Positions 3,875-38,622 of a DNA stretch of 64,000 nt are shown one piece after another. The notes beneath the pieces are model-generated. The model worked only from the letters and a program-made list of their open reading frames with translations, made no database searches and was not told where the DNA came from. Numbering within the stretch: the first letter of the stretch is position 1; each line of letters opens with the position of its first letter. The stretch is taken from positions 18,239 to 82,238 of IMG/VR virus record IMGVR_UViG_3300006028_000011. The stretch is one strand, 5' to 3'. This stretch comes from a virus. The position numbers and the translations under genes are program-made.

Positions 3875-5440
3875 TCAGGTGGCGGACTCGTCGAACAGCC
3901 CGACCTGCACGAGGGCGGGCGTGGCGTCTGCGGGGTGCGGGGCCGGCCTGGTCGCCGGGCGCGGGGCTGACCGTGGCTGAGCGCGCCAGTACGTCAGCCG
4001 GGCGAGCGCGGTCCGCACCGACTCCTCGTCCTGCTCGATGCCGATGGCCTGGAAGCCCTCCAGGACGGCCGCGATCAGCGTGGTGCCGCTGCCGGCGAAC
4101 GGGTCGAGGATTACCCCCCCCTGCGGCGTGACGAGGCGACACAGCCACCGCATGAGGGCGAGCGGCTTGACCGTCGGATGGGTGTTGCGCTCGCCCGGCG
4201 GGAGGCCAGCGCTGCGCTCGCGAGGGCTGGCCTTGGCGCAGTAATAGAAGCGGCTGGCGGCACCTGTGTCGTCGTAGAACTTGCGCTGCTGGTCTGTGGG
4301 CTGCCAGCCGTCGTCGTTCATCAGGCCGAGGGCGGTGTGGTTGGTGCCACCTTTGCCAACGATCCGCTCGCCGCTCTGTCGGTCCAGCTCGGCCACCGGA
4401 CAGCCCTCGACGCACTCCCAGGACTCGACGGTTTCGGTGCCGTCGGGGTCGGCGTGGCGAGTCATCACGGGGTTGCTCGCGAAGTCGCCGAGACTGCGCC
4501 GCTCCACACTGGCCATGCCGCGTGACGGCCGGCCCGGCGGCGCGATGCCGCGGACCTTCCGAGCCCCCACCGCCACGCAGCCCTCGGCGTGCGAGAGCAC
4601 CAGGTTGGCCGGCCAGCGACCGATAGAGCAGTCCGTTTCAGCCGCAGCCATCGGCCCGGCCATCGACCCCCGCGTGGCGACCCGGTCGGTGAGCGGCCAG
4701 ACGCCCTTGTCTGCCCCCGTTCCCACCCGGCACCCGCCCACGTTGATCGCGCCCGTCCCGTGCTCCAGGATGTTCGTGGCCACCGAGCCCCGGAAGGGCC
4801 TGCGGAAGACCAGGACGGCCTCCCAGGCGGGCTTGAGGGCGACGTTCCACCCCTGCCACCGACGAGCCTCGTCGGTTGCAGGGGTGGTGATCGGGGTTGG
4901 CGAGAATCGGTCCGCGCGTCCTTCCGCCAGACGCCATCCCATCGATGCAGTCCAGGCGGGCCGCTCTGCGAGTACCTCCCGCTCGGCGCCCGCCATCCGG
5001 TCGATCGCCTTGGACACGTCCAACCCCTTGGGGAAACCCTGTCCGTGCATCCAGCGCAGTGCGGGCGGCCCCTCCGAGGCGATCGTGTCGCGGTTCTCGA
5101 ACCCGGCGAAGCGGATGGCCAGCGAGAGGAGGTCCCACGTCCGGGTGCTGCTGAACGCCAGCAGGTGGGCGCCGGGCTTCATGACCCGGTAGACCTCGCG
5201 CCAGTACTCCGGACCGGGGACGAAGCTGTCCCACGAGCGGCCCATGAATCCTGCGCTGCCGTGCTCGTACTCGTCGCCGGCCAGCCAGTGGCGCACGACC
5301 TCGGCGATGTCCGGCTCACGGCTCAGGCCGTACGGCGGGTCCGTCACCGCCGCGTCCACGCTGGCGTCGGGCAGCTCGCGGAGGCGCTCGCGGCAGTCGC
5401 CGTGGAGGAGGCGGACGGGACCGGAGGTCCAGTCGCTCAT
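3875..5440 (-). CDS. DNA N4-cytosine/N6-adenine methyltransferase, 521 aa
   Basis: Motif IV DPPY (about residue 37) precedes motif I DPFAGSGTTL (about 460), the order of beta-class DNA methyltransferases. HPTVKPLALMRWL matches the conserved H-P-x-x-K-P segment. The long middle region (about 120-420) should hold the target-recognition domain and has Cys-rich patches. ATG at 5440 overlaps the stop of the Mom-like gene (ATGA), so the two are translationally coupled. It probably protects phage DNA from restriction. No partner nuclease is adjacent apart from the small HNH gene. Confidence 0.85.
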   Translation of the reverse strand: MSDWTSGPVRLLHGDCRERLRELPDASVDAAVTDPPYGLSREPDIAEVVRHWLAGDEYEHGSAGFMGRSWDSFVPGPEYWREVYRVMKPGAHLLAFSSTRTWDLLSLAIRFAGFENRDTIASEGPPALRWMHGQGFPKGLDVSKAIDRMAGAEREVLAERPAWTASMGWRLAEGRADRFSPTPITTPATDEARRWQGWNVALKPAWEAVLVFRRPFRGSVATNILEHGTGAINVGGCRVGTGADKGVWPLTDRVATRGSMAGPMAAAETDCSIGRWPANLVLSHAEGCVAVGARKVRGIAPPGRPSRGMASVERRSLGDFASNPVMTRHADPDGTETVESWECVEGCPVAELDRQSGERIVGKGGTNHTALGLMNDDGWQPTDQQRKFYDDTGAASRFYYCAKASPRERSAGLPPGERNTHPTVKPLALMRWLCRLVTPQGGVILDPFAGSGTTLIAAVLEGFQAIGIEQDEESVRTALARLTYWRAQPRSAPRPATRPAPHPADATPALVQVGLFDESAT

Positions 5441-6315
5441 GCCGCCCTCCCATCGAGGCGGACCCGACACGGCTCGCACGGGCAGGGCGGCGCCGCGGGC
5501 GGCAGGCCCAGCTGGATCAGCCGCCGACGCGGGCCGACGCGGAAGGCGTAGCGGTGGCTGCCGTGGTGGCGGATGCGCCGGACGCCGACGCGCCCGAGCG
5601 CGTCCCGCAGCCAGTCAGGCCGGTCCTCGCCCGGTCGCCGGGCCCGTGCGCCGAGGCCAACCAGGAGCCGTTCGCCGGCGGCCGCCCCGCGCTCCCCCGC
5701 CCGGATCTTCTGCACGGTCCGCGCCGACAGGACGCGACCGTCGGGCAGCAGGAGCTGCGTCCGCGGAGTGCTGCGCTCGTGGTACGTGGCGTTGCCGGCC
5801 TGGTAGATCAGCCCGACGTGGCCGGGGAACACCCGGAGGCCGTCCACCGTGGACCTCGCCACCGGGTCGGAGAAGCTGACGACGCCGCGTAGGCCGGTCG
5901 CCGCGGCCAACTCCCAGACGCGGGCCAGGAACCACGTCTCCGCGTTCGCTGGCACGCTGTCGGCCAGCACGAAGCGCCCGAGCTCCAGCGACTCGCTCAG
6001 CGGCTCCAGGTCGGGGAACAGCGAGGTGAGCACGGCGCTCTGCACCGGCACGGAGAGCACGGCAGTGCCGACCAGCCAGGGCCCGTCGTGGAGGCCGTAG
6101 GCGAAGCGCGCGGCCGGGTACGAGCCGCTGTAGTGGTTGGCCTCGACGAACGGCCGCGCCTCCCGCTCCACCAGCGGCGCGACCTCGTAGCGGGCCTGGT
6201 CGAAGCCGCCCTCGGAGCGGTGGCGCCAGCTGTGCCGGCGGCTCCGCCAGCGCTGGCACCAGGGGGAGTGACCGCTACCCCCCGATGCAGTGGTCCCGGA
6301 GGTCCAGGCGCTCAT
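5437..6315 (-). CDS. Mom-like / GNAT-fold DNA-modification protein, 292 aa
   Basis: After a basic N-terminal extension, the core (about residues 45-200) shows segments such as EANHYSG, LELGRFVL, ANAETWFLARVWELA and VSFSDP. These resemble the GNAT-fold family that includes phage Mom proteins, which modify adenines so that restriction enzymes fail. Position next to a DNA methyltransferase supports that role. The C-terminus is Arg-rich with a CPCEPC cluster. Start ATG overlaps the upstream TGA. An alternative is an unrelated GNAT acetyltransferase. Confidence 0.55.
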   Translation of the reverse strand: MSAWTSGTTASGGSGHSPWCQRWRSRRHSWRHRSEGGFDQARYEVAPLVEREARPFVEANHYSGSYPAARFAYGLHDGPWLVGTAVLSVPVQSAVLTSLFPDLEPLSESLELGRFVLADSVPANAETWFLARVWELAAATGLRGVVSFSDPVARSTVDGLRVFPGHVGLIYQAGNATYHERSTPRTQLLLPDGRVLSARTVQKIRAGERGAAAGERLLVGLGARARRPGEDRPDWLRDALGRVGVRRIRHHGSHRYAFRVGPRRRLIQLGLPPAAPPCPCEPCRVRLDGRAA

Positions 6316-6608
6316 GGCGTGCGCTCCCGGCACGGCGAGCTGACACCCATTCCCGACACCCCAGCGCTGGCGGTGGCGGTCAGGAGGTGGCGGTCGCTGG
6401 CGGCATCCCCATATTCACCTGGCGGCAGCCGGCGGGGTCTGTCGCCCCGTGGCGGGAAGATAGACGGATGATGTACATCCATCCCCCGTCCCGCGACCGG
6501 CTGGCCGGGGAGCTCCGCGCCCTGGTCGCTGGAACTCAGGAGCCAGGTCTCGGAGGCTGAGACCAGCGCCTCCTCGACCGCGATGACACCCATTTCTGAC
6601 ACCCTCAC
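6312..6608 (-). CDS. Uncertain ORF, 98 aa, beside integrase
   Basis: The GTG start overlaps the integrase stop and the stop overlaps the next start, as in real genes of this window. The sequence nevertheless looks like a regulatory or attachment region: it carries two copies of a 21-nt direct repeat, a palindrome around ATGTACAT (6473-6480) and the inverted repeat GGTCTC/GAGACC near 6547-6564. It may be a coding gene, a non-coding attP region, or both. Confidence 0.35.
   Translation of the reverse strand: MRVSEMGVIAVEEALVSASETWLLSSSDQGAELPGQPVAGRGMDVHHPSIFPPRGDRPRRLPPGEYGDAASDRHLLTATASAGVSGMGVSSPCRERTP
6341..6361. repeat. Direct repeat copy 1 near integrase (candidate arm/attachment site)
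   Basis: TGACACCC-ATTCC-CGACACCC matches 6584-6604 with three mismatches. Each copy contains the unit GACACCC twice at 13-nt spacing. Paired short direct repeats beside an integrase gene are expected of arm-type integrase or excisionase binding sites; this is inference. Confidence 0.45.
6584..6604. repeat. Direct repeat copy 2 near integrase
   Basis: TGACACCC-ATTTC-TGACACCC, the second copy of the 6341-6361 repeat, 243 bp away. It ends directly at the integrase stop codon. Confidence 0.45.
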
Positions 6609-7816
6609 CCTGCCGACTCCTCGCCGCGCCCAGTGGCCGCCTCGTCCTCGCCCCACGCCGCGTCCAGCACGGCCAGCTGCTCGCGCAGGCCGTCGTCCTC
6701 GAGGTGGCCGTAGAGGTCGGCGGTGATCTGGATGCCGGAGTGCGCGAGCACCTCGGAGACGGTCTTGAGAGGGATCTTGAGGGCCAGCATCACGGAGGCC
6801 GCGCTATGGCGCAGGTCGTGGAACCGCCGCTCCCCCAGGCCGGCCCGCTTCAGCAGCCGCTGGAAGTGCGCCGTCACGTACTGGCCGTGGAGCGGGAGGC
6901 CGTTCGGACGGGTGAACACCAACTCGATCGGCCTCCCGTCGCTCTCCATGACGCTCCAGCTCGGCCCGGCCGCCTCTCGTTCTGCCTGCTGGCGTGCGAG
7001 GTGCTCGCGCAGGGCGGCGGCCACGGGCGCCGGCAGGGGCAGCGATCGCGGCGCCTTCTTGGAGCGCGACCGGCGCACCGAGCGCAACTGCCAGGACGTG
7101 TCGATGCGGACCAGCTTCATCGGCCAGCGGATGCGGGTGAAGTCCTCCGCGATGTCCTGGCGCCGGAGGCCGAGCAGCGAGGACTTGCGCTGCCCGAGCA
7201 CGGCCGCGGTCAGGTAGAGCGCGTACAGGCGGTCCCCGCGGATGCCGGCCAGGAACGCGCGGGCCTCGGCCAGGGTCAGGATGTTCTCCGGCGCCGCCTC
7301 CGCCGCAGGCATCTCGATGAGCTCGCTTGAGGCTGGGTTGCGGTGGATCAGGCCCAGCCGGTTGGCGCGGCCGAGCGCCGAGCTGAGCGCGATCCAGATC
7401 GACCGCACCATGTTCACGCTGAACGAGCGCTGCATGGCGTCGAGGAAGCGCTGGATCTCCAGCGGGTCGAGCTGCGACAGGCGGCGGCGGCCGAGCACCG
7501 GCTTGATGTGGAGCCGGACCAGGCTCTCGTAACGCTGGTACGTGAGCGGCTCGCGGCTCGCCTTGACCGTCTCCAGCCATTGGTCGAGCCACTCGTCGAG
7601 CGTGCGCGGCGCCGCCACGCCGGACGCGGTCAGGCGACCCTGCTCCTTCTGGCGCTGGAGCCGGCGCAGCACCTTGGCGGCCCCGGCCTCCGTGTCCGCG
7701 TACTCGTACTTCCGCTGCCGCTTCCCGAGCGGGTCGCGGCCCAGGTCGATGCGGACCTGGAAGCGCCCGTCGCTCCGCCGGGTGATGGAGCCCTCGCCGC
7801 GCGCCCGCCGCCTCAC
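6605..7816 (-). CDS. int: Tyrosine-recombinase integrase, 403 aa
   Basis: Residues about 1-50 form an AP2-like arm-binding domain (GRFQVRIDLGRDPLGKRQRK). Residues 70-170 form a SAM-like core-binding domain. The catalytic domain shows Arg about 210 (GQRKSSLLGL), HxxR-H at about 333-337 (FHDLRHSAAS), His about 359 (LAHSG) and the nucleophile Tyr about 369 (ADLYGH). The GTG start is set by the GTGA overlap with the excisionase stop. It catalyses site-specific integration and excision. Length and domain order are normal for actinobacterial phage integrases. Confidence 0.92.
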   Translation of the reverse strand: MRRRARGEGSITRRSDGRFQVRIDLGRDPLGKRQRKYEYADTEAGAAKVLRRLQRQKEQGRLTASGVAAPRTLDEWLDQWLETVKASREPLTYQRYESLVRLHIKPVLGRRRLSQLDPLEIQRFLDAMQRSFSVNMVRSIWIALSSALGRANRLGLIHRNPASSELIEMPAAEAAPENILTLAEARAFLAGIRGDRLYALYLTAAVLGQRKSSLLGLRRQDIAEDFTRIRWPMKLVRIDTSWQLRSVRRSRSKKAPRSLPLPAPVAAALREHLARQQAEREAAGPSWSVMESDGRPIELVFTRPNGLPLHGQYVTAHFQRLLKRAGLGERRFHDLRHSAASVMLALKIPLKTVSEVLAHSGIQITADLYGHLEDDGLREQLAVLDAAWGEDEAATGRGEESAG

Positions 7817-8049
7817 TGCGTGCCACCTTCCAGGCGCTGGCGCCACCACTCGTCGAGCAGCGCGACCGGGATGCGGACCATCCGATCTCCGTCCAGGCGG
7901 ACGTGCGGCACGGTGCCGCGCGCGATCCAGCGCTCCATCGTGCGGCGCCCGACGCGGATCCGGGCCGCGGCCTCCTTTATGGTCAGCAGCACCGGCGCCG
8001 CCGACTCCTGCTGCCGCGGGCGGAGGTGAATGACAGGAGCGTTGCTCAT
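7813..8049 (-). CDS. xis: Excisionase / MerR-type HTH protein, 78 aa
   Basis: A single HTH_17-type winged helix covers about residues 22-72: LLTIKEAAARIRVGRRTMERWI then RMVRIPVALLDEWW. This is the usual size and fold of excisionases, and it lies immediately upstream of and overlapping the integrase. ATG at 8049 follows GGGGTAAGG. It probably directs the integrase toward excision. Confidence 0.8.
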   Translation of the reverse strand: MSNAPVIHLRPRQQESAAPVLLTIKEAAARIRVGRRTMERWIARGTVPHVRLDGDRMVRIPVALLDEWWRQRLEGGTQ

Positions 8050-8051
8050 CC

Positions 8052-8375
8052 TTACCCCACCTCGACTGACCGAGGCAAGCCGTCGGCTCTGCCCAACGCC
8101 ACGAAGGCGTTGTGTCTGCGCGGCAAGCTGACCCGGCTCTCGCGACTCCAGCCCTGCGTGTCTGTATAGAGCTGCCAGGCGACGCCTCTGCTCGGCACCG
8201 AGGAGAGCCAGGTGAAGGCCCGGGTCTCCTCGCCGAGGTCCCACAGCGGCATCGCCAGGTGGCAGAGCCGGCAGAGCTGGATCAGGTTGGGGAGGAGGTC
8301 CAGGCCGCATCCCCGATCGCTGGCGGCCGCCTTGGGCGGCATCCCGGGCAGGAGGGGCTGCGCGACCGGCGTCAC
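8052..8375 (-). CDS. Half-HNH-like protein, 107 aa
   Basis: The segment LLPNLIQLCRLCHLAM is the C-terminal part of an HNH motif (N-L-x-x-L-C-x-x-C-H), but the N-terminal CxxC and first catalytic His are not evident; only one Cys precedes it. The remainder (WDLGEETRAFTW) is unassigned. GTG start overlaps the cytosine methyltransferase stop. It may be a degenerate or atypical HNH protein. Confidence 0.5.
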   Translation of the reverse strand: MTPVAQPLLPGMPPKAAASDRGCGLDLLPNLIQLCRLCHLAMPLWDLGEETRAFTWLSSVPSRGVAWQLYTDTQGWSRESRVSLPRRHNAFVALGRADGLPRSVEVG

Positions 8376-9571
8376 CGGACCGCCTCGGCGAACAACTCGT
8401 CCTGCATGTAGGTCGTCCCGTCGTCGCCGGTCGCCACGGCGGCCTTCGTCTCGCGCTTCGCCGCCTTCCGCTCGTCTCGCAGACGCCGGCGGCGCTCGGC
8501 CCGCGTCTCGCCGTCCGCGTCCCGCACCTCGCCGCCCCGGCGGACGCCGCGCTGCGCCACTCCGACGCCCGCCGTCGCCTCCAGCATCTGCCGCAGGTTG
8601 TCGGCGATACCCATGCCGCCAGCCTCGGCCATCCGGCAGATGGCGTCGACGACCAACTCCCCGTCGGGGGTGACCATCGCGGCCATGTTCGGGACGTTCT
8701 CCATCATCCAGGCGCGCGGCTGGATGTCGCAGACGATCCGGACGAAGTCGAACACGAGGCTGTTGCGCGGGTCGTACACGTTCCGCCTCCCCGCCGTGGA
8801 GAAGCCCTGGCAGGGCGGGCCGCCGCAGACCATGTCGATCTTCCCCGGCTCGGCGCCGAGGACGCTCAGGATGTCGTGGCCGGAGAGATGGCGGGCGTCC
8901 GCCAGGAACAGCGCCCGGCACGGCTCCAGGCACTCCTTGTCGTCCACGGTGTTCAGCTCCCGCACGTACTCCGAGCCGTAGTCGCGCGGGTTGGGCAGGA
9001 CGCCCTCACGCTGGAGGCGCGCGGACCTGATCCAGCCCTGTCCGGCGGACGGCCAGGTCAGGTACTCGCCGTGGTCGACGAGGGGGGCGTGCTCCAGCGG
9101 GTGACGCTCCTGCGTCAGCGTCTCGCCTGTGGCGACGTCGCTCCAGCCGCCCCTGCCGCTCTTGTACTTCGGGTTCCGCACCCTGCCGGCCCGCTTCCGC
9201 TCGGAGTCGTTCGCCTTGATGAAGGCCGCCTTCCGGTCCGGGTCCGCGTAGATGCGCGTGGTCGGGTCGCCGAGGTTGCAGAGGTACGTCATGGCGGCAT
9301 GCACATCCCACTCCAGGGCGCCGACGACGTGGATGCCGGCCTGGTGCAAGCCGAGCGACATGCCGCCGCAGCCGGCGAACAGGTCGATGCCGGTCGGGTA
9401 CCGGCTCAGCTTCACGGCGGCCGGCACGTACAGGCCGGTGCCGTTCCGCTGGTACCCGTCCCACTCGCTCCACGACCGGACCCGCGCGAACTCGGCGCCC
9501 CGGATATCGGCGAACGCCCGGGTGACGCCGAGCGCGTGCTCCACCTGGGCGACGAAGGCGTCAGTGGCCAC
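8372..9571 (-). CDS. C5-cytosine DNA methyltransferase, short C-terminus, 399 aa
   Basis: Motif I (GIDLFAGCGGMSLGL, about residue 60), motif IV with the catalytic Cys (GGPPCQGFSTAGRRN, about 255) and motif VI (MMENVPNM, about 295) are clear. A roughly 130-residue insertion separates motif II from motif IV. After motif VI there is no recognisable target-recognition domain or motifs VIII-X, only a charged tail. This layout also occurs in other actinobacterial prophage enzymes as I recall. Start GTG lies inside the end of the upstream gene. Confidence 0.85.
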   Translation of the reverse strand: MATDAFVAQVEHALGVTRAFADIRGAEFARVRSWSEWDGYQRNGTGLYVPAAVKLSRYPTGIDLFAGCGGMSLGLHQAGIHVVGALEWDVHAAMTYLCNLGDPTTRIYADPDRKAAFIKANDSERKRAGRVRNPKYKSGRGGWSDVATGETLTQERHPLEHAPLVDHGEYLTWPSAGQGWIRSARLQREGVLPNPRDYGSEYVRELNTVDDKECLEPCRALFLADARHLSGHDILSVLGAEPGKIDMVCGGPPCQGFSTAGRRNVYDPRNSLVFDFVRIVCDIQPRAWMMENVPNMAAMVTPDGELVVDAICRMAEAGGMGIADNLRQMLEATAGVGVAQRGVRRGGEVRDADGETRAERRRRLRDERKAAKRETKAAVATGDDGTTYMQDELFAEAVR

Positions 9572-9743
9572 GCCGGCTCTCCCTCCCAGCCCGCACCAGC
9601 GCGACCGCCTCGTCCCCGGTGACCTCGGTGCCGTCCGGCCCGATCGTGTGGCCACACGGCACGCGGTCCCCGTCCTGGCCCTCTACCGGCTGCGACAGCT
9701 CGCGGGGCCAGGTCTCCGGCTGGATCAGGGCCGCGTCAGCCAC
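9561..9743 (-). CDS. Small hypothetical protein, 60 aa
   Basis: It overlaps both neighbours by about 10 nt. It contains a single CGH motif (VPCGHTIGPDGTEVTGDEAV) and no other recognisable feature. It belongs to the chain of small genes ahead of the cytosine methyltransferase. Confidence 0.5.
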   Translation of the reverse strand: MADAALIQPETWPRELSQPVEGQDGDRVPCGHTIGPDGTEVTGDEAVALVRAGRESRRGH

Positions 9744-31502: not shown

Positions 31503-31639
31503 CACCCGCCCAGCCTGCGAACGGCGCCCGCCGTGGCCCACGCGAGCAGGGCGCCCAGGACGAAGTAGGCGATGCCCAGGGTGGGGTCGGGGTGCGCGAG
31601 GACGGGCGCGGCGGCGACGAGTCGAAGCGCGAAGCTCAT
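31502..31639 (-). CDS. Small membrane protein, 45 aa
   Basis: An opening strand (SFALRLVAAAPVLAHPDP) then a hydrophobic helix (GIAYFVLGALLAWATAGAV). ATG/TGA overlaps on both sides (ATGATG pattern). Confidence 0.45.
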   Translation of the reverse strand: MSFALRLVAAAPVLAHPDPTLGIAYFVLGALLAWATAGAVRRLGG

Positions 31640-32499
31640 GCCGCCGCCTGCGTGCTGGCACGCTGCGCACGGGCCCGCGTTTCGTTCGCGAGCTGCTTGC
31701 GGGCGGCCGTGAGGGCACGCTTCGCGGCGTGCTCCTGGAGGCCGGTCGCCGCGGCCACCCGGCGCCAGTTGCCGCGGGCCCGTGCGATTCGCAGCACGCG
31801 GGGATCGACGCGGCGATCCGGGCCCCGCGGCGGCCGCGAATCGTCCTCCGCATCGCCGTCGTCATCGTCCTGCGAAGCGGCTGGCTCGTCCGGGGACGAG
31901 TCATCGTCCTCCAAGAGCCCGCGGTCGACGGCGTTCGATCGCCTCGTGCGAACGAGCAGGTACCAGCAGGCCAGGGCGATCACTGGCGGCCACGCGTGCA
32001 TGCCAACCGAGATCGCATCGCCCGCGTTGGCCAGGACGTTGCCGAGGACCATGATCGCGGCCGCCACTGCGCTGATCACGCCTGCGAGCCAGGCCGACTT
32101 CCCACGGTGCGCCTGGTCGAGCGCGATGATCCCGGTCGCGAGCGAGGCGAGGTCCACGGTCGTGGGCCACGCGATCGACTCCCAGTTCTCAGGACCGCCG
32201 AAGTTGTGCCTGCTCGCGAGGTCGTACAGGCTCGCGTATGAAATCGCGTACGCGAGCACCGAGATGGCGTACGCCACCAGCTCGGCGGTTCGAGAGAGGG
32301 AGGAGGGAGCCGTGCGCATTCGCGCGTATGCCCGGCGCGCCGCGAGCTGGATCGCCTTCCTGCGACTCCACCACCCTGGCCGACGCCGACGAGCCGGGGG
32401 CGTCTCGCTCCCCATGTTCGCGGGTGGCTTCGCGGGGTCGTTCGCGTTCGCTTCGTTCGCGGTTCGCTCCACCCTTCGCAGCGGGTTCGCAAGTCGCAT
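31636..32499 (-). CDS. DUF2637 (SpdB-like) membrane protein, 287 aa
   Basis: A basic N-terminus (about 1-65), then membrane helices around residues 70-90, 112-128, 138-157 and 168-182, with AWPTTVDLASLATGIIALDQAHRG (in part) as the polar segment between them. This matches DUF2637, a family found in Streptomyces integrative elements as spread (Spd) proteins. The C-terminal tail is acidic then basic with an HTH-like stretch (RVAAATGLQEHAAKRALTAA). It follows a divergent promoter and likely starts the membrane operon. Confidence 0.65.
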   Translation of the reverse strand: MRLANPLRRVERTANEANANDPAKPPANMGSETPPARRRRPGWWSRRKAIQLAARRAYARMRTAPSSLSRTAELVAYAISVLAYAISYASLYDLASRHNFGGPENWESIAWPTTVDLASLATGIIALDQAHRGKSAWLAGVISAVAAAIMVLGNVLANAGDAISVGMHAWPPVIALACWYLLVRTRRSNAVDRGLLEDDDSSPDEPAASQDDDDGDAEDDSRPPRGPDRRVDPRVLRIARARGNWRRVAAATGLQEHAAKRALTAARKQLANETRARAQRASTQAAA

Positions 32500-32514
32500 G
32501 GCCGCCACCATACA

Positions 32515-32547
32515 GCAAAGTCCGGCGTAATGCTGGCAAAGTCCGGC
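32515..32547. promoter_or_regulatory. Tandem operator repeats (21-bp period)
   Basis: GCAAAGTCCGGC occurs at 32515-32526 and 32536-32547, 21 bp apart (two helical turns), between the divergent DUF2637 and XRE genes. The similarity extends into GTAATG/ATGATG. Likely operators for the adjacent XRE protein. Confidence 0.55.
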
Positions 32548-32589
32548 ATGATGGGCTAGGGTTAGGGCATCGAACGCTACGATGCCGAC

Positions 32590-32832
32590 GTGACCGCCGA
32601 GATCGCGCCATACCTCGCCGAGGCGCTCCGTCGCGAGCAGGGCGCGAAGGACTGGACGACCATCGAGTTGGCCGCCCGCGCCAACATCCACCGCAGCCAC
32701 CTCGCCGAGATCCTGGTGGGGCGTCGGTCGCCGAACGTCGAGACCTTGGAGCGGCTGTGCAGGGCGCTCGGTCAGCCGATCTCCCGCTTGTTCCTGCAGG
32801 CTGAGCGACTGCGAGCAGAGAGGGGAGGGTGA
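32590..32832 (+). CDS. XRE-family HTH regulator, 80 aa
   Basis: Residues 22-72 hold a canonical XRE helix-turn-helix: TTIELAARANIHRSHLAEIL, SPNVETLERLCRALG. GTG start (the earlier ATG at 32581 meets a stop after three codons). It is the only plus-strand gene here, divergent from DUF2637 and convergent with cas4. Confidence 0.75.
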   Translation: MTAEIAPYLAEALRREQGAKDWTTIELAARANIHRSHLAEILVGRRSPNVETLERLCRALGQPISRLFLQAERLRAERGG

Positions 32833-32971: not shown

Positions 32972-33550
32972 TCAGACGCAGACCTTCCGGTAGACGCAGT
33001 CGAGGCACTTCGTCGCCGGCGCCCGCCCCGGCATGTCCTCCGTGCCGACCACGGCCTGCATGTCGGCCACGAGGTTCCGCACGATCCGCTTGTCGGCCTC
33101 CCTGATCGCCACCTCGCGGACGACGTCGCCGCCCAGATAGTGCAGGTAGCCGCGGTTAACCAACCGGCCGTGCCGCTCCTCGAGGAGCAGGGCGTAGGCC
33201 GCGAGCTGCACCAGCTGCTCGGGCCACGGGCGCGCGGGCGGCTCGCCCATCTTCACCTCGTACACCGCGAGGTCCCCATCCGCGGCGACCAGGGCGTCGA
33301 CCTTGCCGCGGAGCCGGAGCCGCTCCGACGACAGCTCAGCGGACATCAACTTCGAGCGGGCCCGCACGCTGGCGCCCTCCCGCCATCGGTTCTGCTCCCT
33401 GGCCGCCCAGCGGTCGTGCTGCTCGCGGCCGTGCTCGGTCTTCACCGTCCCGCGCTGCTTCATGCCGAGCACGTACGCGAACCACGTGATCCGGGCGCAG
33501 TAGCGGTGGTTCATCAGGTCTCCGACCGACAGGTAGCCGTGGCGATCCAC
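32972..33550 (-). CDS. cas4: Cas4 adaptation nuclease, 192 aa
   Basis: Four Cys for an Fe-S cluster are present: Cys18 (MNHRYCARI) and Cys182, Cys185, Cys191 (KCLDCVYRKVC). Between them are the PD-(D/E)XK core (KVDALVAADGDLAVYEVKMGE) and motif QhxxY (LVQLAAYALLLEE). Cas4 trims prespacers and helps select PAM-adjacent ends. GTG start begins on the last base of the cas2 stop. Last gene of the cas operon. Confidence 0.9.
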   Translation of the reverse strand: MDRHGYLSVGDLMNHRYCARITWFAYVLGMKQRGTVKTEHGREQHDRWAAREQNRWREGASVRARSKLMSAELSSERLRLRGKVDALVAADGDLAVYEVKMGEPPARPWPEQLVQLAAYALLLEERHGRLVNRGYLHYLGGDVVREVAIREADKRIVRNLVADMQAVVGTEDMPGRAPATKCLDCVYRKVCV

Positions 33551-33868: not shown

Positions 33869-34870
33869 TCAGGCCCAGCGGTGGACGTACGGCTGGTAGG
33901 CGGCGTGGCGACCCAGCAGGAACCCGACGAGGTGACGGGCCTCGCGAACGAGGAGCTCCTGCCATCGGATCCGCTCGCCGCGGTAGACGAGCTCGTCGTT
34001 GAGGCGCTCCAGGACCTGGCCGGCCACGAGCTTGCGGCCGTCGACGCCGAGCAGCACACCGCCGTCCTCGTGCTCCTCGCCATGGTCTCGGCTGAGCTGC
34101 CGCCGGCGCACCAGGGTGAGGACGGCCCGGTCGACGATCGGCTGCCGGACGAGCTCCACGAAGTCCAGGGTCAGCGACGGCTTGCCCCAGCGGTCCGTGT
34201 GGAGGAAGCCGAGAGAGGGCTCGAAGCCGCTGAGGGCGAGAGCTCGCTCAGCCTGCGCGCACGCGATGGCGTAGCCGTACGACAGGGCCGCGTTGACGAT
34301 GTCGCGCGGCGGTCGCCGGGTGCGGCCGTTGAAGCCGATCCCGTGCGGCAGGAGCGCCTTCAGGCCGTCCATGTACGAGCGACCGATCCGCCCCTCCAGC
34401 GCGAACAGCGCGGGCCTCGCGGAATGCAGCGTCGATCCGAAGTCGCGCGATTCATCGAGCAGCCCGGAGATCGTCCTCCGCTGCTCGGCGGTGGCGGCGG
34501 CGTCGAGCACGCGGAGGAGGTGCTGCTGGTTCCGACACTTGGCCGCGACCAGCGCGCTGGCGATCGCCACTCCGCGGTTGTCAGTGGCGGCGTCGAGCTG
34601 GGCGCGCTTGACGAGCGCGGCGCCCGACAGGGAAGAGGGGACGAAGCGGCCGACGAAGTCCCCCTTCCAGTCGACGAGCGCGATGTCGGTGCCCGTCTCG
34701 GCCGCCAGCGCCAACGCGTCGGTGCTGATCATCTGCTGCGAACCGAGCACGATCTGACGGACATCGTCGGCCGCCCACTCGCGATCCTCTTCGCCTACCT
34801 TGACCCTGAATCGCTGGCGATGGCGGCGCACAGCTATCCCGCGTGCATCCAGAACGATGTCCATTCTCAC
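33869..34870 (-). CDS. cas1: Cas1 CRISPR integrase, 333 aa
   Basis: The catalytic triad is intact: Glu159 (ALEGRIGRSYMDGL), His224 (SLGFLHTDRWGKPS) and Asp236 (LTLDFVELVRQPIVD). The N-terminal beta domain (1-90) and helical C-terminal domain are complete. It catalyses spacer integration with Cas2. Its gene starts 88 bp from the leader-distal end of the array, and the order is cas1-cas2-cas4 on the same strand as the effector. Confidence 0.93.
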   Translation of the reverse strand: MRMDIVLDARGIAVRRHRQRFRVKVGEEDREWAADDVRQIVLGSQQMISTDALALAAETGTDIALVDWKGDFVGRFVPSSLSGAALVKRAQLDAATDNRGVAIASALVAAKCRNQQHLLRVLDAAATAEQRRTISGLLDESRDFGSTLHSARPALFALEGRIGRSYMDGLKALLPHGIGFNGRTRRPPRDIVNAALSYGYAIACAQAERALALSGFEPSLGFLHTDRWGKPSLTLDFVELVRQPIVDRAVLTLVRRRQLSRDHGEEHEDGGVLLGVDGRKLVAGQVLERLNDELVYRGERIRWQELLVREARHLVGFLLGRHAAYQPYVHRWA

Positions 34871-34957: not shown

Positions 34958-36115
34958 GTGGCATCCACACTCGCCTACCACCGGCCGTCACCTGTGGCAG
35001 CCATGCTCGCGCTCCGACCGCTGCAACTGGCGTGGCCAGGCGAGCCGGGCATGGGTGACTTCGTGGCATCCACGCTCGCGCTCCGTCGGCCGCTGCAACT
35101 GGCACGACGGCGCAAGAGAGGATCGAGAGTTGGTGGCATCCACGCTCGCGCTCCGTCGGCCGCTGCAACAGCGCACCCGCGACTGGGAAGAGAAGTAGGC
35201 CGAGTGGCATCCACGCTCGCGCTCCGTCGGCCGCTGCAACCACTCGTCCCGGGCCGGAACGACCAGTCATTCACCGTGGCATCCACGCTCGCGCTCCGTC
35301 GGCCGCTGCAACCATGCTGTGCCGATCACTCAAGGAGGAGGTGATGCCGTGGCATCCACGCTCGCGCTCCGTCGGCCGCTGCAACACAGTCGCAGGGCGC
35401 CGTAGCTCCCACTGACCATCCCGTGGCATCCACGCTCGCGCTCCGTCGGCCGCTGCAACATATTGGGATCTTGGGAGCAGCCTTATTGCCATCGGTGGCA
35501 TCCACGCTCGCGCTCCGTCGGCCGCTGCAACCGCCTCGCCGGGAGCACGAAGCCACGGCCGATTCTCGTGGCATCCACGCTCGCGCTCCGTCGGCCGCTG
35601 CAACGCATAGAGTTCAGACAGATGCCGCCGCAATCACCGTCGTGGCATCCACGCTCGCGCTCCGTCGGCCGCTGCAACCCGCTTGCAGAAGATCATCGAC
35701 GCCGACCTCAGGTTGTGGCATCCACGCTCGCGCTCCGTCGGCCGCTGCAACTGTGCAGTACCCTCCGCAGCTTACCGCTCAGTCTACCGGTGGCATCCAC
35801 GCTCGCGCTCCGTCGGCCGCTGCAACTGACAAAGCGGCGATGATAGCCGCGATAACCGCAGGTGGCATCCACGCTCGCGCTCCGTCGGCCGCTGCAACCC
35901 GCGCGGTTGGCTGCTCGGACGCGGGGCCTCATCCGTGGCATCCACGCTCGCGCTCCGTCGGCCGCTGCAACCGCCTCGGCGCTGGTGCTCACGGTGATGA
36001 CCTCTCTGTGGCATCCACGCTCGCGCTCCGTCGGCCGCTGCAACCCGGCAGTGGCAGGCGCCATGCGAAGCCATCTTCGTGGCATCCACGCTCGCGCTCC
36101 GTCGGCCGCTGCAAC
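34958..36115 (-). CRISPR. CRISPR array, 15 identical 37-nt repeats plus 2 decayed repeats
   Basis: In crRNA (minus-strand) sense each repeat begins GTTGCAGCGGCCGAC and ends GCGTGGATGCCAC. Intact plus-strand repeat starts are 35063, 35133, 35204, 35276, 35349, 35423, 35495, 35568, 35642, 35715, 35790, 35862, 35935, 36008 and 36079. Spacers are 33-38 nt. At the cas1 end, a 34-nt degenerate copy (34994-35027) and a partial one (34958-34974) show decay, marking the leader-distal end, so transcription runs right to left. The 3' end of the repeat can fold as GUGG-AUG-CCAC. Array and all cas genes share one strand. Confidence 0.97.
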
Positions 36116-36280
36116 CGCAATCGCCAACTCGTAAGCGCCCACAGCAGGCGCTCGGCGTAGACTGAATCCGTCATAGAGCCGATGAGCCCGAGTTGCGTCG
36201 ACGTGGTCAACCTCCCCCTCGCGGTGGCAAGTGAGAGGTCGTCCGCGAGTACAGCAGACGTCGGGGCGCAGGTGTGGTAT
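36116..36280 (-). promoter_or_regulatory. CRISPR leader region
   Basis: The 165 bp between the youngest intact repeat and the effector stop are free of repeats and should hold the leader and array promoter. I see no strong -35/-10 pair. A weak match to the repeat's start occurs as GTTGCGTC on the plus strand at 36192-36199, too short to call an anti-repeat. No convincing tracrRNA can be shown here. Confidence 0.55.
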
Positions 36281-37963
36281 TCAGGCCACGGCATGGGGCA
36301 CACCCCTACCGTTAGCGCCTGACGGACCTGCCCGGCCCGGCTCCTCCAGTGGACGCTGGAGGACGTTTCGCGCCGAGTTGACCGTCCTCGGCGCGGTGTA
36401 ACCGCAGGCCGGGCAACGGTGAACGCGGAGCGATATGGGCTTTGGGACGAGCGTGCCGCACCGGGCGCATTCCTGCGTCGTGTGTGGTGCCGGCTTCCTC
36501 GCGACTCGACCACCAGCATCTGCCGCTTTGTAGTCGAGGGCGGCGAAGAACGCGCCCCAAGCTGCGTCGAGTTCCCCTCTGTTCCTCCTCCTCTGTACGT
36601 GTGCCGGAAGGTCCGGCTGTGGATCCGGGTTGTGCTCCGGAGCCACCGTCAACTGCTTGATGTCGAGCGCTTCGACGGAGATCTCCTCGAACTGGCGCAC
36701 CAGGGCCCGCGACACCTTGTGTCGGTGGTCCCCGCGGGCGCTGCGCTCGCGCTCCTTGGCGCGGGCGTACGCCTGCACCGCCTTCTTCCGGCGGTTGCTG
36801 TGGGCGTGGCCGGCCCTGGTCCGCCGGGCGACCCTGCGCTGCGTGCGCGCGACCCGCCTGGCGTGCCGCATGCCAGCATTGCTGCCCTCGATGAGCACGG
36901 CGGAGCCGGCCTCGTCAGGCACCGGCTCGGCGATGTCGTGGGCGGCCTGGAGGCGCCTGCGGATCCTCGCGCACGCCCTGTCGAGCTCTCCGAGTCGATG
37001 GAGGGACCGACGGTAGAGCTTGGTCAGCTCCTTCGGGCATCGGCGCGGCCGGGCTGGATCCAGGCCTCGCGCCCGGCAGTGCGCCAGCACCTCCGAGAGC
37101 TGCGCGGCCTCGCGTTCCAGCTCCTCCAGCCGCCGGCAGTCCGAGGGGTCGGTGGCCATCCGGCGCAGATCCGCGACGAGCGCCGCGGCCGCGCTGGTGT
37201 CAGCCGTGAAGGCCGTGCCCCAGGTGACCACGCCCATGTCCAGCCCGACTGCCGGACGGCCGCTGGCGGCTGGCTCGACGCTCGGCATCTCCATGGCGAT
37301 CGAGACGAACCAGCGCTTCCCGGACCGGCGCACGATGACGCTCTTCGGGATGGCGCCCATGGGGATGCGGCGGTGCTCGAGGATGCGCAGCTCGCCGAGC
37401 CCGGTGAGGCGGAGATCGCCGTTGTGGTACGTGCCAGCGCCGACGGTCTTGCCCCGGCCGAGCGATTCGCCGGTCTCGGGGTCGAAGCGCTCCTTCGACG
37501 GGCTGGTGAGGCCGAACGTCAGCGAGTCGTACCTGTGCTCGGAGCGCCAGCGCGGATACCCGGCCTTCTGACCCTTGGTCGCCCGCTGGAAGAACGCGGC
37601 CATGGACCGCTCGAGGCGCGCCAGGACCTCGTGCTGGACGAGAGCGGGCATGCCCGGCGGCAGGAGCTCGGCGTGCTCGCGGCGGAACTCCGTGAGCAGC
37701 TTGCCCTGGTCGTTCTTGGAGATGTGGGCGCCGCCGCCGCCGCGATAGACCCACCTGCCGGGCGGGTCGCTCTTTTTGCGGGGGGCGGCGTCGCCGTCCC
37801 AGAAGCGGAAGCCTCGGCCGTGCGCGTCATGGCGGCCCCACGCGTTCTTGCGGTGCTCGAGGGCCGCGTTGTAGAGCTGGCTCGCGAAGCGCAGCCAGCT
37901 CGTCAGGGCCTCGGCCTGCTCTGGCGTCGGGTAGGCGCGGTACTTGTACGTCCGAACCGTCAC
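36281..37963 (-). CDS. cas12f-like: TnpB/Cas12f-like type V CRISPR effector, 560 aa, RuvC-III Asp replaced
   Basis: The start is GTG at 37963: VRTYKYRAYPTPEQ is the classic TnpB/Cas12 N-terminus, and GGAGGG precedes it. Residues 1-235 form the WED/REC region. The split RuvC follows: RuvC-I VGLDMGVVTWG (Asp242), a helical bridge (270-420, with the ARRVARTQRRVARRT and DHRHKVSRAL segments of TnpB-type proteins), RuvC-II EEISVEALDIKQL (Glu431), and a zinc ribbon Cys499, 502, 517, 520 (ECARCG ... CPACG). The RuvC-III motif, normally DRDxNAA, reads PRTVNSA: Thr527 (codon ACG) stands where the catalytic Asp belongs, and Pro525 replaces the other Asp. Inference: RNA-guided DNA binding without cleavage. 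Alternatives are a Cas12n-like effector or a TnpB derivative. Confidence 0.85.
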   Translation of the reverse strand: MTVRTYKYRAYPTPEQAEALTSWLRFASQLYNAALEHRKNAWGRHDAHGRGFRFWDGDAAPRKKSDPPGRWVYRGGGGAHISKNDQGKLLTEFRREHAELLPPGMPALVQHEVLARLERSMAAFFQRATKGQKAGYPRWRSEHRYDSLTFGLTSPSKERFDPETGESLGRGKTVGAGTYHNGDLRLTGLGELRILEHRRIPMGAIPKSVIVRRSGKRWFVSIAMEMPSVEPAASGRPAVGLDMGVVTWGTAFTADTSAAAALVADLRRMATDPSDCRRLEELEREAAQLSEVLAHCRARGLDPARPRRCPKELTKLYRRSLHRLGELDRACARIRRRLQAAHDIAEPVPDEAGSAVLIEGSNAGMRHARRVARTQRRVARRTRAGHAHSNRRKKAVQAYARAKERERSARGDHRHKVSRALVRQFEEISVEALDIKQLTVAPEHNPDPQPDLPAHVQRRRNRGELDAAWGAFFAALDYKAADAGGRVARKPAPHTTQECARCGTLVPKPISLRVHRCPACGYTAPRTVNSARNVLQRPLEEPGRAGPSGANGRGVPHAVA

Positions 37964-38622
37964 CACGCCCTCCGCGCCATCACGGTCCACCCCGACGGCG
38001 CCGTGGCCGACGGCAGGAGCCCGTCCAGCGCCGCGCCGACCAGGTTGGTCGCCAGGCGGACCGGGGCCAGCGGGCGGCCGTGGAGGCGCTGGGCCAGCAC
38101 CAGGAAGAGGCACGCCCAGTCGCCTCCCTGCGGGGTGATCTCGACCTCGACGTACCCCGCCGCCCGGAGGTGGTGGGCGAACCCGTGGCTGGTGAAGCGG
38201 TGGAAGTCGTACGGCTCCTCATGCAGCGGCCACCAGAACGGCGCGGTGAGGACCAGGCGGCCGCCCGGCCGCAGCACCCGGTGCGTCTCCCTGATCAGGT
38301 CCGCCGGGTCCGGCACGTGCTCGGCCACCTGGGTGCAGAACACGATGTCGAAGCGGTCGCTGGCGACCCCGAGTTGCCCGGCGAGCATCAGCGCGTCCGG
38401 CCGGGTGTCCTCCGGGGTGGCGTCCACGCCGACGCACCGGCAGCCCGCGAAGAGGTCCCGGTACGGCCGGTTGCCACAGCCGACGTCCAGCACCAGCGGC
38501 GCCTCGACGCCCACCGCCGCCCGGGCCGCCGCCACCGTGCGCTCGATGTCCGGCCACAGGTAGCGGTAGTGGAGGTAGTCCTGCCGCCACGGCCGCAGCC
38601 GGCGCTCGGAGAGCCGGCTCAC
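37960..38622 (-). CDS. Class I SAM-dependent methyltransferase, 220 aa
   Basis: Motif I VLDVGCGNRPYRDLF (about residues 42-57), motif II VGVDATPED, and the post-motifs FDIVFCTQVAEHVPDPADL and LRPGGRLVLTAPFWWPL are those of methyltransferases of the UbiE/Methyltransf_11 kind that act on small molecules or sugars. Its stop overlaps the effector start (GTGA), so the two are translated together; the reason is unknown. Confidence 0.8.
   Translation of the reverse strand: MSRLSERRLRPWRQDYLHYRYLWPDIERTVAAARAAVGVEAPLVLDVGCGNRPYRDLFAGCRCVGVDATPEDTRPDALMLAGQLGVASDRFDIVFCTQVAEHVPDPADLIRETHRVLRPGGRLVLTAPFWWPLHEEPYDFHRFTSHGFAHHLRAAGYVEVEITPQGGDWACLFLVLAQRLHGRPLAPVRLATNLVGAALDGLLPSATAPSGWTVMARRAW

Follow-up and report, generated by a model that had tools for sequence, protein, structure and literature searches.

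What kind of CRISPR system does a phage carry when the repeats of its array resemble those of Cas12f and the effector beside the array resembles TnpB? We addressed this question in a window (the whole 64,000-nt stretch of DNA analyzed here) that comprises bases 18239-82238 of IMGVR_UViG_3300006028_000011, an 82,238-base IMG/VR record. On its minus strand, the window encodes an effector gene, a CRISPR array, cas1, cas2, and cas4, in this order and all in one direction. The features of the locus, in window coordinates, are:

37960-38622, minus strand: class I methyltransferase gene, directly upstream of the effector gene
36281-37963, minus strand: effector gene, 560 aa, TnpB-like Cas12 with GTG start and with HTH_OrfB, RuvC, and zinc-finger TNB domains
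36929-37198, minus strand: coiled-coil insert of the effector, approximately residues 256-345, between early RuvC strands
36383-36385, minus strand: codon ACG (Thr527) at the position of the RuvC-III catalytic Asp, context CPACGYTAPRTVNSARN
36252-36289, minus strand: candidate tracrRNA anti-repeat, overlapping the effector stop codon and colinear with repeat positions 5-37
36116-36280: leader, between effector and array
34958-36115, minus strand: CRISPR array, 15 identical 37-nt repeats and 2 decayed terminal repeats
35063-36115, minus strand: the 15 intact repeats and the 14 full spacers that separate them
34994-35027, minus strand: decayed repeat 16, 34 nt
34958-34986, minus strand: decayed terminal repeat 17, lacking its 5' part, at the leader-distal end
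33869-34870, minus strand: cas1, 333 aa
33550-33855, minus strand: cas2
32972-33550, minus strand: cas4, 192 aa

The record contains genes for a T4-type portal, major capsid protein, terminase, tape measure protein, GH25 endolysin, and integrase. Because these virion and lysis genes lie on the same contig, the CRISPR locus is carried in a tailed-phage genome. Its CRISPR part has a G+C content of 68-71%, near the phage value of 72%. The phage host is likely an actinobacterium, as judged from the G+C content and from a DUF2637 protein, whose gene lies directly past cas4 together with a divergent small HTH regulator gene (31639-32832). A DNA modification cluster at 3875-9655 surrounds the integrase gene and encodes an N6/N4 methylase, a Mom-like protein, and a C5 cytosine methylase. 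The methyltransferase gene upstream of the effector overlaps the effector start by 4 nt (GTGA, formed by the effector GTG start and the upstream stop codon), and the two genes may share translation through this overlap. Homology searches with I-B, I-C, I-D, and V-F proteins identified no second CRISPR effector in the 82-kb record. No Y1_Tnp was found in the record either, so that the locus lacks the TnpA transposase that accompanies tnpB in an IS200/IS605 transposon.

The CRISPR array is genuine. Its extent agrees exactly with that given in a first-pass annotation, which had also described a 37-nt repeat with a GC-rich middle and defined ends; the repeat is indeed GC-rich, and 15 identical copies carry both ends. 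In crRNA sense (minus strand), the repeat reads GTTGCAGCGGCCGACGGAGCGCGAGCGTGGATGCCAC (37 nt). The 14 spacers between intact repeats measure 33-38 nt, and no two are alike. The decayed copies lie at the cas1 side, which places the leader at the effector side and the crRNA sense on the minus strand.

The adjacent cas1-cas2-cas4 module is complete and of the kind associated with V-F systems. Residues E159, H224, and E239 of Cas1, at the expected active-site positions, are invariant within its clade. The three closest Cas1 proteins (43, 39, and 38% identical) come from type I-D loci of Actinomycetota. In our tree, the window Cas1, on a long branch, groups with I-D and V-F Cas1 proteins (92/99), with I-D as its sister group (95/94). 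An alignment-based Cas1 scan identified nine distant viral Cas1 loci, none of which (0/9) has an effector like the one described here. Spacer acquisition by Cas1-Cas2-Cas4 is well supported by the anatomy of the locus.

The effector matches the HTH_OrfB, OrfB, and Cas12f1-like TNB domains. Its sequence identity is 27-34% to most actinomycete TnpBs in the alignment and 16-17% to two Cas12f2-type proteins, and the protein falls among TnpBs (97/100), apart from Cas12f2, in the tree. The NCBIfam Cas12f2 profile gives it 17 bits, against a cut-off of 450. The PADLOC profile PDLC01691 (Cas12f) gives it 357 bits. We did not accept this 'Cas12f' label as proof of V-F, because ordinary TnpBs reach 190-250 bits on these profiles; in two sets of actinomycete genomes (396 and 395), no TnpB found exceeded 252 bits. 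On the TnpB model, the effector has a weaker score (171 bits versus 333-341). The higher Cas12f score and weaker TnpB-model score suggest that the effector belongs to a CRISPR-side group. An AlphaFold model (pLDDT 75) has ISDra2 TnpB as its best PDB match (TM 0.78, target-normalized), followed by AsCas12f (0.61), TranC (0.51), Cas12m (0.37-0.47), and Cas12n (0.34); the C-terminal half of RdCas12n matches the effector at 2.6e-12. The effector is a TnpB-like protein and not Cas12f1 or Cas12f2 (Cas14a/b) proper. Exact-peptide scans recovered no close relatives of the effector or Cas1 in IMG/VR, or of the effector in GTDB genomes.

Two features distinguish the effector from its TnpB relatives. First, it has a coiled-coil insert of ~90 residues that has no match to the TnpB profile and is absent from the relatives. 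We considered an internal duplication of the RuvC-II module as its origin and rejected this; profiles give it no support, and the AlphaFold model shows a coiled coil. Second, the RuvC D-E-D triad is incomplete. The RuvC-I Asp and RuvC-II Glu are retained, and the RuvC-III Asp is replaced by Thr527, the equivalent of D361 in ISDra2 TnpB. Aligned TnpB relatives and one Cas12f2 protein have Asp at this site (alignment row L079, a mis-picked frame, was left out of the comparison). The near context, APRTVNSARN, contains no acidic residue. The replacement is seen in one contig and is unreplicated, and it may be a contig error.

We favor a reading in which the locus is a phage-borne, spacer-acquiring, TnpB-derived type V system that probably binds its targets rather than cutting them, and we regard the odds of its being right as evenly balanced. 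New spacers would be inserted by Cas1-Cas2-Cas4 next to the leader that separates effector and array. The 3' end of the effector gene would supply a tracrRNA-like RNA that pairs with the repeat, and the resulting duplex would be trimmed by host RNase III, a maturation route that we infer from the family. The effector ribonucleoprotein would then bind targets beside a PAM and would mainly block transcription or replication of competing mobile elements, not cut them. Because the RuvC triad is incomplete, binding without efficient cutting is predicted, as in Cas12m, which silences without cutting and protects the cell by this silencing (PMC10442227). RuvC inactivation with retained interference has occurred several times in type V, and approximately 50 independent TnpB-CRISPR captures have been inferred (PMC12669027). 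The 3'-terminal hairpin of the repeat would have no special part in this mechanism.

It is also possible, if rather doubtful, that the locus is a self-updating RNA-guided repressor. In this adaptive system, cas1-cas2-cas4 would let the array grow by acquisition, and the sole effector would be a TnpB-like Cas12 that is nuclease-dead, has a new coiled-coil insert, and was captured separately from Cas12f. If so, the phage would silence its rivals rather than destroy them. The spacers had no match in phage records or in their own phage and nothing beyond one chance-level partial match among plasmids, and 20-nt seeds of four spacers had no match in IMG/VR. Since the spacers yielded no target, their use against rival elements is something that we infer.

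An ordinary cutting V-F/V-U system, in which the RuvC-III change is tolerated, compensated elsewhere, or a contig error, would account for the intact fold, zinc finger, and RuvC-I and RuvC-II residues, the 560-codon open frame, and the complete adaptation module. However, the aligned relatives that we checked retain the catalytic Asp, and no acidic residue lies close to Thr527. Moreover, in characterized Cas12 and TnpB enzymes, changing a single triad residue abolishes cleavage. We therefore consider a cutting system unlikely, though it deserves to be taken seriously.

We compared the repeat with those of Cas12f-type and type I-D arrays. We searched 84,980 genomes with a two-repeat pattern (ATGCNAC, 32-40 nt, GTTGCAG, 20-24 nt, RATGCNAC); it matched 42 stretches, among which were real 37-nt-repeat arrays from five genomes (Nanoarchaeia, Auribacter, Diapherotrites, Latescibacteria, and Woesearchaeota). 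The Latescibacteria array consists of a single weakly conserved repeat pair and is the least sure of the five; the Woesearchaeota repeat is one that we take to be that of Un1Cas12f1. The Nanoarchaeia and Auribacter arrays directly adjoin Cas12f2/Cas14b genes and are accompanied by cas1-cas2-cas4. The Diapherotrites locus has the order array-cas1-cas2-cas4, as in the window, and the contig end truncates it on the effector side. P-values comparing the five fetched repeats were left unused because matching ends were already a requirement of the search pattern. The same repeat pattern had no true relative in IMG/VR, where it yielded one odd repeat array. This array (L011:1488-3471, IMGVR_UViG_3300036421_000021) lies beside integrase genes on a phage-like contig and has 24 imperfect repeats of approximately 37-41 nt (..AGTGCATCGGACAGATGCAAC), mostly 69-74 nt apart; its spacing is CRISPR-like, its repeats are variable, and no Cas gene was seen in the locus.

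The resemblance to Cas12f repeats that the first-pass annotation had pointed out is thus real, and the window repeat has the 37-nt length, GTTGCAG start, and ATGC(A/C)AC end of a V-F repeat. Its start is not specific to V-F, however. The type I-D loci of Actinomycetota with the closest Cas1 (a type label that is our own call from gene content) have 36-37 nt repeats that also start with GTTGCA and that end in ATTGAAGC; V-F is therefore indicated by the 3' end only. The GTTGCA start more likely marks the Cas1 clade, probably following this integrase, and the ATGC(A/C)AC end is the V-F-like part of the repeat.

These comparisons also bear on whether the TnpB-like gene is a bystander, either a transposon remnant or a TldR-like repressor with a guide RNA of its own, while the array and cas1-cas2-cas4 supply crRNAs in trans to a host effector such as a type I-D system. 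Such an arrangement would fit the clustering of the effector with TnpBs and not Cas12f2, the closeness of Cas1 to type I-D Cas1, the possibility that phages use host Cas proteins (PMC7162821), and the existence of phage-encoded dead TnpBs (TldR; PMC13418256). Yet the record has no Y1 transposase, and the effector gene immediately precedes the array on their common strand, just as effector and array are neighbors in Cas12f2 loci. At its 3' end, the repeat is V-F-like (GATGCCAC) rather than I-D-like (ATTGAAGC), and the effector profile score is above those of transposon TnpBs. On this evidence, a bystander gene is improbable.

The first-pass annotation further proposed that the repeat ends in a hairpin, GUGG-AUG-CCAC, that serves as a processing site next to each spacer. 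This hairpin (4 bp, -2.5 kcal/mol) can form in all 15 intact repeats, and decayed copy 16 retains 3/4 stem pairs by eye; what fails is the notion that it exceeds chance. The 3' 17 nt of the repeat fold no better than shuffles (z -0.11), and the full repeat is equaled or outdone in folding by 191 of 200 shuffles. Terminal stems of 4 bp or longer turn up in 12.6% of shuffled repeats (4.5% if only Watson-Crick pairs are counted) and in 5.3% of 37-mers sampled from the phage of the window. Among five Cas12f-type repeats, none folds in its last 18 nt. These repeats instead pair end to end (GTTGCA with TGCAAC), a pairing that has one mismatch in the window repeat. We therefore ruled out the hairpin as a conserved V-F feature; it does not argue for V-F, and it probably does not serve as a processing site. 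A Cas12f-type system with crRNAs cut at this hairpin is very improbable even though every intact repeat can form it, given its chance-level occurrence, its absence from the five Cas12f-type repeats, and the pairing of Cas12f crRNA repeats with tracrRNA (PMC8763643, PMC7229846).

A tracrRNA-like partner, as the favored binding system would use, has a candidate at 36252-36289. This anti-repeat would pair with most of the repeat, and it occupies the site at which the scaffold RNA is found in Cas12n and TnpB; in Cas12n, the tracrRNA is located within the effector mRNA (PMC11641405). Its score is ordinary in this GC-rich genome (13% of 300-nt windows are equally good), and its duplex energy equals the shuffle mean. 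It is thus a candidate only, not above background. A search of Rfam returned nothing.

Our best reading is that the locus is a complete class 2 CRISPR-Cas system, type V by TnpB capture, with a single RuvC/TNB effector of V-U-like character beside the array. It counts as V-F at most broadly, with V-U2 to V-U4 merged into that type; because the effector does not group with Cas12f1 or Cas12f2, we do not file it as V-F proper. It would nevertheless work like a V-F/V-U system. Type V systems formed by TnpB capture are a known kind, and such captures are a live topic (PMC12669027). The new elements are the altered triad, the insert, a Cas1 that belongs to the I-D/V-F clade, and carriage by a phage with full adaptation genes; CRISPR systems on phages nearly always do without genes for spacer acquisition (PMC7162821). 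The repeat-level claim is modest by itself. The locus as a whole would serve to test whether binding alone can sustain adaptive immunity, and how repeat ends follow Cas1, not the effector.

Among known systems, the Cas12f2/Cas14b loci of Nanoarchaeia and Auribacter share the 37-nt repeat with a GTTGCAG start and ATGC(A/C)AC end, an array that adjoins a small Cas12, and the presence of cas1-cas2-cas4. They differ in their effector (16-17% identical to that of the window, on a separate branch), which has a RuvC triad that looks intact, and in gene order (cas1-cas2-cas4-cas12f-array versus cas12-array-cas1-cas2-cas4 in the window). Their repeats have no terminal hairpin and have perfect GTTGCA/TGCAAC end pairing, in contrast to the mismatch in the window repeat. 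The type I-D module of Actinomycetota is alike in its Cas1 (38-43% identical), cas1-cas2-cas4 genes, and GTTGCA repeat start, whereas it has a multi-subunit effector complex with a Cas10d-type protein and repeats that end in ATTGAAGC.

TnpB proteins (ISDra2 and IS200/IS605 relatives) resemble the effector in sequence (28-34%), in fold (TM 0.78), and in their HTH_OrfB, RuvC, and TNB domains. Unlike them, the effector is encoded beside a CRISPR array and adaptation genes without TnpA, has the ~90-residue coiled-coil insert, and has lost the RuvC-III Asp. TldR proteins are nuclease-dead TnpBs with a mutated RuvC, a single gRNA, and no CRISPR array; the effector has a mutated RuvC-III, but an array and cas1-cas2-cas4 are adjacent to it. 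Cas12n (type V-N, formerly V-U4) is likewise TnpB-like, and the C-terminal half of RdCas12n matches the effector; the fold match is partial (TM 0.34), and Cas12n cuts DNA. Finally, Cas12m (type V-M) is a small TnpB-like Cas12 with a non-canonical RuvC triad that binds to silence (PMC10442227). Its triad is HDD, whereas the window effector is changed at the third residue, and the folds of the two proteins match at TM 0.37-0.47.
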